DNA of 64,000 bases, taken from Cytophagales bacterium Alg240-R148 (GTDB taxonomy: Bacteria; Bacteroidota; Bacteroidia; Cytophagales; Cyclobacteriaceae). Shown here piece after piece: positions 56,734 to 57,483 of the stretch. Positions within the stretch are counted from its first letter, which is position 1. Each line of letters opens with the position of its first letter. The translations under genes were made by a program, and so were the position numbers. The stretch covers positions 310,001 through 374,000 of the forward strand of contig LS999826.1 in NCBI GenBank assembly GCA_900537185.1. Direction: 5' to 3'. The notes under the pieces were generated by a model. The model saw only the letters and a list, made by a program, of their open reading frames with translations. It was not told the DNA's origin and did no database searches.

Positions 56734-56807
56734 CGGGGTGTAGCGTAGCCCGGTATCGCGCCTCGTTTGGGACGAGGAGGTCGTAGGTTCGAATCCTGCC
56801 ACCCCGA
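56734..56807 (+). tRNA. tRNA-Pro (anticodon UGG)
   Basis: A standard cloverleaf: acceptor CGGGGTG with CACCCCG, anticodon stem CCTCG/CGAGG with loop TTTGGGA (anticodon TGG), and T stem GTAGG/CCTGC with loop TTCGAAT. CCA is not encoded. Its 3' end is copied at 57012-57027, and an inverted copy of its T-arm recurs at 56873-56887 and 57091-57105. Confidence 0.95.
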
Positions 56808-56811
56808 CTGT

Positions 56812-56845
56812 AAAACGTCAATCAGAAATGGTTGACGTTTTTTTT
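56812..56845 (+). terminator. terminator T1 of tRNA-Pro
   Basis: AAAACGTCAATC and GGTTGACGTTTT pair around the loop AGAAAT, with a run of T after it. Position directly behind the tRNA makes it the normal terminator. A second terminator with a different stem but the same loop is at 57028-57060. Confidence 0.85.
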
Positions 56846-56872
56846 ATGTCTAAACTTTCTAAGAACATCTAT

Positions 56873-56887
56873 GGCAGGGTTCGAACC
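56873..56887 (-). repeat. inverted copy of the tRNA-Pro T-arm (block A)
   Basis: GGCAGGGTTCGAACC is the reverse complement of tRNA-Pro 56786-56800 (GGTTCGAATCCTGCC) in 14 of 15 bases, and the odd base pairs as G-U in RNA. Read-through RNA could therefore base-pair this copy with the tRNA T-arm across terminator T1. Confidence 0.6.
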
Positions 56888-57011
56888 GTGGTTTGAGTTG
56901 GAGCTTGCGGAAACCATGAAGGGTTTTTTGTGCGGCATGCCATTTTGCGGGTATGAGCTAAACCGAAGGTTCACGAGGGGTTTTTGTGCGGCATGCCTTG
57001 TGCGTATGAGT

Positions 57012-57027
57012 AATCCTGCCACCCCGA
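57012..57027 (+). pseudogene. duplicated tRNA-Pro 3' end fragment
   Basis: AATCCTGCCACCCCGA repeats the last 16 bases of tRNA-Pro exactly. The rest of the tRNA is missing here, so this is a remnant or a copied end, not a gene. Confidence 0.7.
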
Positions 57028-57060
57028 CAAACACCATTTAGAAATAAGTGGTGTTTTTTT
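57028..57060 (+). terminator. terminator T2 behind the tRNA-Pro fragment
   Basis: AAACACCATTT and AAGTGGTGTTT pair around AGAAAT, followed by a T-run. Loop and flanks match T1, but the stem differs at matching positions on both sides, so the fold is conserved while the sequence changed. Confidence 0.75.
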
Positions 57061-57353
57061 ATGTCTATACTTTTCTAAGAATATACAAATGGCAGGGTTC
57101 GAACCGTGGTTTGAGTTGGAGCTTGCGGAAACCATGAAGGGTTTTTTGTGCGGCATGCCATTTTGCGGGTATGAGCTAAACCGAAGGTTCACGAGGGGTT
57201 TTTGGTGCGGCATGCCTTGCGGGTATGAGCTAAACCGAAGGTTCACGAGGGGTTTTTTGTGCGGCATGCCTTTTTGCGGGTATGAGATAAACCAAAGGTT
57301 CACGAGGGGTTTTTTGTGCGGCATGCCTTTTTGCGGGTATGAGTAATCCTGCC

Positions 57354-57483
57354 ATCCAAAATAATCAGCGAATTGATTCGGATTTATCATTCCAAATGAT
57401 CGACAGAAGGGTGGACTATCGGTACCATTAAAACGGAAAAATAACTTCAAGTTGCAAGTGATACCAACAAAAAGGACCTTGCA
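57354..57483. other. intergenic spacer after the repeat array
   Basis: 130 bases between the last repeat and the 3' end of the DUF2490-like gene. It has no gene, hairpin or further copy of the repeat that I can see. Confidence 0.5.

Follow-up and report, generated by a model that had tools for sequence, protein, structure and literature searches.

What kind of element is the ordered series of repeats that lies behind a tRNA-Pro gene in a stretch of 64,000 nucleotides (the window) from the genome of Cytophagales bacterium Alg240-R148? The initial annotation of this DNA described a succession of tRNA, terminator, inverted T-arm, repeats, tRNA end, second terminator and second unit, and it knew of no described element with such a structure. 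The succession is borne out by our analysis; the novelty is not, as the tRNA-linked repeats (TLRs) of E. coli and the Rfam family RtT share this structure. The units are real, conserved and structured, they are of the TLR kind, and the Bacteroidota cassette is a host-diverse variant of a known but unexplained kind of element.

Architecture of the tRNA-Pro cassette

The host RNA gene, tRNA-Pro(UGG), occupies 56734 to 56808 (ARAGORN; Rfam RF00005, 65.2 bits), and it lies on the + strand like all the other features of the cassette. The stretch from its T-loop to its 3' end, AATCCTGCCACCCCGAC (56792 to 56808), belongs to repeat family D4. It is followed by terminator 1, a 13-base hairpin and 8 T (56812 to 56845, inverted repeat I2, -14.4 kcal/mol), and by unit 1 (56872 to 57028), which is found directly 3' of the tRNA gene, with its start at 56872 and the tRNA end at 56808. 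Unit 1 consists of an inverted T-arm (56872 to 56887, with corresponding helices in 26 relatives), helix B, two cores and a regained tRNA-Pro 3' end (57012 to 57028, family D4). Core 1 (56911 to 56957) is a member of repeat family D2, and core 2 (56960 to 57010), placed by the repeats and by a covariance model, ends in GTATGAG(T) at the T-loop junction. This model, R1, describes the Bacteroidota units, and neither E. coli nor window sequences went into it; it gives unit 1 a score of 46.7 bits at 56945 to 57020. Terminator 2 (57029 to 57060, -13.3 kcal/mol) has a stem unlike that of terminator 1, while the bases flanking the two stems are similar. Unit 2 (57090 to 57354) contains an inverted T-arm, helix B, four tandem cores at a spacing of 54-57 bases (57129 to 57343, families D2 and D3) and a third copy of the tRNA end that is shorter than the others, AATCCTGCCA (57345 to 57354, family D4, 10 exact bases), with R1 scores of 33.0 bits (57274 to 57353) and 30.0 bits (57161 to 57241).

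The copied pieces can be defined more closely than before. The inverted T-arm TGGCAGGGTTCGAACC, at 56872-56887 and again at 57090-57105, is the reverse complement of the T-arm (TGGCAGGATTCGAACC) in 15/16 bases, where 14/15 had been given, and the regained end is exact as claimed, only longer, with 17/17 bases rather than 16, and it runs to the last base of the gene; CCA is not encoded. Judged from the letters, the inverted T-arm region of unit 1 could form the pairs TGGCAGG/CCTGCCA (57015-57021) and GAACC/GGTTT (56890-56894). The 116 bases from 56871 are 100% identical to their copy at 57089 (family D1), which relates unit 1 to unit 2. The 43-base repeat of family D2 is present in five copies, spaced by 218, 57, 54 and 57 bases, and a sixth copy at 56977 falls in family D3. 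The 54-57 base repeats represent a single core in tandem, present twice in unit 1 and four times in unit 2. As a variant, the window has GGGTTCGAACC where other units have GGATGAGAACC. In general, the inverted host T-arm is followed in a unit by the T-arm's 5' strand, by a core or several cores that contain a small hairpin, and by the host sequence from T-loop to 3' end.

How did two such units come to stand in a row? Since they are of the same kind but have two and four cores and different terminator stems, the cassette looks like a stepwise duplication of a composite unit with expansion of the core. The earlier statement that this is not a simple tandem duplication needs a small correction in this respect. 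Simple duplication of tRNA genes was rejected as an explanation; it occurs in two other genomes (G010, G018), but comes there without inverted T-arm and core. The first has a ten-tRNA array in which blocks of Ser(GCT) and Pro(TGG) recur (L025 1779-2793, G010:C1), and the second has at least four truncated tRNA-Pro copies with terminators behind a tRNA-Pro (L024 1100-2000, - strand, G018:C111; one stretch is N), the truncated copies having a short hairpin in place of the anticodon arm.

Another tRNA-Pro(TGG) locus of the window's genome forms part of a Ser-Arg-Pro cluster (G000:C1:916139) and shows the same order of terminator and unit; it has three cores with GGCAAGG for GGCATGCC, and the tRNA end is not regained.

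The absence of a transposase, noted at the outset, is confirmed by Pfam searches of the eight open reading frames between 50662 and 61064, where no mobile-element or integrase gene is found; the matches are to a symporter, a phosphodiesterase, a WG-repeat protein, DUF2490, a response regulator and a histidine kinase. Two frames that run through the repeats, of 85 residues (57089-57346, + strand) and 159 residues (56971-57450, - strand), have no Pfam match. We reject a coding role for them as likely spurious on this ground; they stay open because a 57- or 54-base repeat sustains its own frame. The E. coli tpr is likewise annotated within a TLR, and TLRs may explain small reading frames and apparent tRNA fragments behind tRNA genes.

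Occurrence and host RNAs

We turn now to other genomes. A pattern for the right end of the unit, GGCATGCN{0,14}GTAYGAGTAATCC, matches 23 of 295 genomes and 14 of 84 genera in the family of the window, with no match for the same pattern reversed. The possibility that the motif occurs once only falls away, as other tRNA genes carry it in many genomes. A search of 59 genomes matched mostly tRNA-Pro itself, and found the core behind other tRNAs in other genera. A looser pattern gives 58 matches against 5 for its control, with 1-8 per genome in 24 of 26 genomes, nearly all of which had been picked for earlier matches. In a collection of named contigs, 20 contigs are matched, three of them by chance (L171, L174 and L175, with no tRNA and no core); seven of the 20 were inspected. 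The remaining matched contigs are labelled as Mongoliitalea, Belliella, Cecembia, Roseivirga, Chryseolinea, Chryseosolibacter, Marinigracilibium, Marivirga, and Cyclobacteriaceae and Flammeovirgaceae bins. The sequence of a bin labelled 'Rickettsiales' (L186) is that of locus L055 of a genome of the family (G221).

Which RNAs serve as hosts? The tRNAs are Pro-TGG, Pro-AGG, Ser-GGA, Ser-GCT, Ser-TGA, Arg-ACG, Thr-TGT, Val-GAC, Cys-GCA, Val-TAC and Arg-TCG. The tmRNA is a host in two genomes (ARAGORN; Rfam 139 and 130.2 bits), with its end regained at one locus (L064) and a degenerate unit at the other (L165). The unit behind these genes measures about 120-330 bases, and its core splits the two halves of the T-loop, as GGTTCG - core - AATCC. 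The 3' end of the upstream tRNA or tmRNA is regained (at least 10 exact bases, same strand) at 22 of 29 distinct places; the copy reaches the mature RNA end in 21 of these 22, and in 10 the identity stops exactly there. The seven misses include a tRNA-Ser(TGA) copy with 7 matching bases only (L058), two Ser-GGA ends with such a tRNA absent nearby (L044, L059), two units behind tRNA-like remains (L049, L052), one with no recognised RNA (L055) and one behind an unrecognised tRNA-like gene (L061).

This last gene, of about 112 bases, is a TLR host in two genomes of genus g79. In L061/L159 it immediately precedes the unit, on the - strand, and in L160 it spans about 1390-1500; it has a T-arm and an 8-bp acceptor, and is reported by neither ARAGORN nor Rfam. 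Several other places were noticed along the way. A cluster of 17 tRNAs (L141 2350-5775, G181:C42) holds two TLR-like units, one within an apparently broken tRNA gene. In a CRISPR-like array with the repeat CCTCTAATCGCACCATACTGGAATTGAAA (L026 1000-2970, G019:C47; L145), the pattern marks seven TLR-like cores; as read, five sit in spacer positions, and one more lies within a repeat. A different repeat of 60-75 bases, noticed through its position behind a tRNA-Thr unit, occurs at G085:C9:230801-233296 and at many sites in G141 and G171, with a 182-base spacing in one array.

By the criterion of our own script, and as counts with no shuffled control beside them, a terminator precedes the unit at 21 of 26 loci and follows it at 17 of 26; the loci without terminator calls include units inside tRNA operons. 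This dual-terminator layout and the published E. coli RrA, RrB and RrF RNAs are consistent with one of the earlier suggestions, a read-through RNA. The other part of that suggestion, pairing of the RNA with the T-arm in trans, is not needed, because the inverted T-arm can pair within the unit with the copied tRNA end.

Fold and covariation

Do the units share a fold? Alignment A1 contains 26 of the 29 units, picked by a motif script whose motif includes GGATGAGA and GAGTAAT. The helices tested are A (between the inverted T-arm and the copied 3' strand), B (GAACC/GGTTC) and C (within the core). In A1, 90.9% of the helix cells can pair, compared with 82.8% in shuffles and 20.7-60.2% in slid controls; there are 31 double-change cells as against 10.1 in shuffles, and the covariation score is 0.208 as against 0.090. 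The number of pairs that carry a double change, 6 versus 5.2, has no excess over shuffles. At one pair of helix C, U-A, C-G and G-C alternate. The picking motif itself partly dictates the invariant pairs of helix A and, since it fixes GGAT and AAT, the free evidence is limited to the outer pairs of A and to C. RNAalifold alone recovers A, B and a two-pair helix on A1, and misses C. An inverted T-arm of the motif type is absent from 7 of the 29 core matches. A further helix, CACG with the GNG before GTAYGAG, had no covariation by eye on A1 and was excluded from the model.

The 5' arm fits its own host at 3.27 of 5 positions and other hosts at 2.19 of 5, a difference reached in 1 of 20000 shuffles over 15 distinct ends; the arm of several units matches GGAT only. 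Folded as RNA, the whole stretch 56809-57360 has a z of -2.77, and single units have a mean z of -1.21 in sense and -0.78 in antisense, while pieces of the window folded as DNA do no better than shuffles. We also looked for a strand-specific RNA signal and found none, the mismatches being 12 G-U and 13 A-C cells. The earlier suggestion of a recombination scar between tRNA loci would, taken alone, leave the covarying structure unexplained.

The same covariation of the helices could be read as the mark of a selected regulatory RNA, which would titrate a tRNA-processing or RNA-binding protein in step with transcription of the tRNA. Such a role would fit the copied 3' ends, which in 21 of 22 places are without a flaw as far as the mature end, and the E. 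coli RNAs RrA, RrB and RrF bind Hfq and CsrA according to the accessible text of PMC8144298. Against this, the deletion effects given there for the E. coli RNAs are modest, the units are patchy in presence even among congeners, their hosts differ between genomes, and the outer units decay. We regard this role as unlikely.

Gain, loss and mobility

The next point is whether the units come and go. In genus g77, with ten genomes, a unit lies between tRNA-Ser(GCT) and tRNA-Pro in four, three have an empty site, and three gave no assignment (4 of 9 loci were alignable by script). Two of the carriers (G229, G212) are recognised by identity and two (G267, G242) by an 85% match of the locus together with R1 scores of 72.0 and 63.6 bits; the exact direct repeat is 28 bases long. 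In genus g85 the unit is behind tRNA-Thr in two of three genomes and the third has the empty site; there the tRNA-Thr is followed at once by the downstream terminator, so the first terminator is part of the insert. In genus g62, one of eight genomes has a unit at tRNA-Ser(GGA), one has a unit away from the tRNA, and six have none at that tRNA. Such empty sites may reflect gain by insertion or precise loss. Partial or decayed units stand at the ends of several arrays. At one place (L142 near 1696, G164:C69) a Ser-GGA unit lies behind a truncated tRNA end, and an intact tRNA-Ser with no unit is on another contig.

Core identity is 0.85 between genera when the host is the same (63 pairs), 0.68 when host and genus both differ (315 pairs) and 0.60 between different hosts within one genome (4 pairs), which suggests that cores travel with their host locus and rarely jump between hosts; the closest such jump, tmRNA versus Val-TAC, is at 0.95 across genera. 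Recent spread inside genomes was considered and is unsupported, the within-genome cores being unlike (0.60, 4 pairs).

If the units move, what moves them? One possibility is a non-autonomous selfish element at the DNA level that depends for its movement on a resident island's enzyme, such as a tyrosine recombinase, with the T-loop-to-3'-end stretch as attachment site, the hairpins as single-stranded DNA or recombinase sites, and any RNA as a by-product. It would account for the empty sites in congeners (three in one genus, one in another), for a Thr insert that comes with a terminator of its own and restores the tRNA end, for cores common to many hosts (tmRNA and Val-TAC above), and for direct repeats of 17-30 bases from the T-loop, 10 of 22 ending exactly at the mature RNA end like tRNA attachment sites. 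It has to face a window locus whose eight reading frames hold no recombinase, cores that differ within genomes, and the lack of a proven carrier island that ends in a unit. Viral carriage was rejected: among viral contigs the strict pattern has 0 matches, and the looser pattern has 1, at the edge of a contig, where the sequence is that of the E. coli tyrT repeat. We hold the selfish DNA element to be conceivable but rather doubtful. An interval of about 17.5 kb between two units behind tRNA-Ser(GGA) (L140 957-18343, G117:C1) has reading frames whose translations, on reading, resemble type I restriction-modification and other defence-like genes.

Small hairpin elements with no gene of their own also bring to mind REP sequences moved by a Y1 (RAYT-type) transposase. 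A likeness to rtT has been reported in BIME/REP attenuators of E. coli (PMC2965389, in the part accessible), rttR is listed among REP-containing sRNAs (PMC12306157, likewise), and a Y1 protein is present in our E. coli control. The Bacteroidota data go the other way. The window's genome, which is 99.92% complete, has 0 matches to PF01797 at E <=1e-5, as have two other carriers; Y1 is equally common in carriers (20 of 23) and in genomes without the pattern (33 of 37); and a carrier genome has 1-8 pattern matches, not hundreds. We consider a REP-like origin very improbable. Of the earlier idea of a non-autonomous element that targets the tRNA end, the anatomy is upheld, with many hosts, a junction at the T-loop and empty sites, while no mobiliser was found; a distant or plasmid-borne one may exist.

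Proposed explanation

On balance, we favour by a little the reading of the cassette as two tandem TLR units in which read-through and tRNA-type 3' processing sit atop a host-sparing insertion. We infer the transcription, processing and movement of the units as follows. Read-through of terminator 1 would lead to low-level transcription of the unit. The copied tRNA end would then be a 3' processing signal for the nucleases that mature tRNAs, and a small structured RNA would be released. The 3' strand of the copied host stretch from T-loop to 3' end can pair with the inverted copy and so complete a T-stem/acceptor minihelix. Insertion at the T-loop of a tRNA-like domain would bring the units in, tandem duplication on the spot would multiply them, and recombination between direct repeats of 17-30 bases would remove them. 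We think that the released RNA would mostly do nothing for the cell and that the unit would be a tolerated element.

A broader and more tentative idea, which we put below the cassette model in probability, is that TLRs are minimal elements found across phyla that recognise the T-loop/acceptor domain of tRNA and tmRNA genes. The core would be inserted between TTCG and AATCC, and the T-stem minihelix and an intact host 3' end would be regenerated by an undescribed route. This route may pass through processed RNA, because at 10 of 22 places the copy stops precisely where the mature RNA does.

Comparison with known systems

The direct repeat and the intact tRNA of the window units recall a well-known arrangement. 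In the tRNA attachment sites of integrative elements, a direct repeat from the T-loop to the 3' end keeps the tRNA intact. The window locus differs in having no integrase, an insert of only about 120-330 bases, and a conserved structure.

The nearer parallels are in E. coli. According to the accessible text of PMC8144298, E. coli has 22 TLRs in ten loci, immediately after tRNA or rRNA genes, with the 3'-terminal 18-19 bp identical to the end of the upstream RNA gene; they were first described in 1978, an early claim of a role in amino-acid starvation for tyrT has since been withdrawn, and their function was unknown until three rRNA-linked ones were studied in 2021. Set beside that definition, the window has 17 copied bases, 10 in its last copy, and its two units fall within the published range of one to five. 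The three RNAs, RrA, RrB and RrF, lie between two terminators as products of read-through, with cleavage by RNase E suggested, and one of them has a 3' end 3 nt beyond the copied stretch (same source). They resemble the window in the dual terminators and in the copied 3' end ahead of terminator 2; they differ in their host, the 5S rRNA (T1-T2), and R1 has no match in the rrnB TLR stretch.

The closest likeness is to the E. coli tyrT-tyrV TLRs (rttR/tpr; RF00391, RtT). Their locus reads as tyrT, a unit, tyrV and three units, each ending in the end of tRNA-Tyr. The order of tRNA, unit and tRNA 3' end, the tandem units, a GGATGAGAA-type inverted T-arm, GGTTCGA and a GAGTAATCC-type junction are all shared with the window. 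The core is different, the E. coli copy includes CCA, and on reading there is no terminator between tRNA and unit, unlike in the window. R1 recognises 4 of 4 tyrT units with 22.3-27.1 bits (E 0.0004-0.0075 in 185 kb), and has no match in the glyVXY and argX-proM stretches, two further candidate loci. It also scores units behind tRNA-Ser genes in a second family, f34 (14.7-27.7 bits, E 0.0003-0.65), and across the phylum it matches 5 of 395 genomes under strict filters.

RtT, for which covariation is reported, including in a helix that frames a tandem GA (accessible parts of PMC8250186 and PMC7657543), matches 3 of 15 loci at E <=5 (L045, L047 and L051), all at tRNA-Ser(GGA). Three units of L047 have 32.0, 32.0 and 23.8 bits, below the cut-off of 45. 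Across the phylum RtT matches 5 of 118 genomes at E <=0.1, all of f34, with a best score of 44.7 bits and none at or above the cut-off; with the window it has no match at E <=10. Matches to the Rfam families sX4, SpF41 and plastid UTRs fall on the tRNA itself, and these look-alikes were set aside. For rtT, a 175-bp difference in copy number is listed between two Salmonella strains (PMC2658671, in the part accessible).

In the literature searched, mostly outside subscription papers and in part only, the term 'tRNA-linked repeat' is used for E. coli and enterobacteria only, and within that literature the host range of the Bacteroidota lineage is wider than any found in print. As a second TLR lineage in another phylum, the Bacteroidota units appear to share the fold; with about a dozen kinds of host, tmRNA among them, and with sites that are empty in nature, they provide comparative material for deciding between RNA and mobile DNA.
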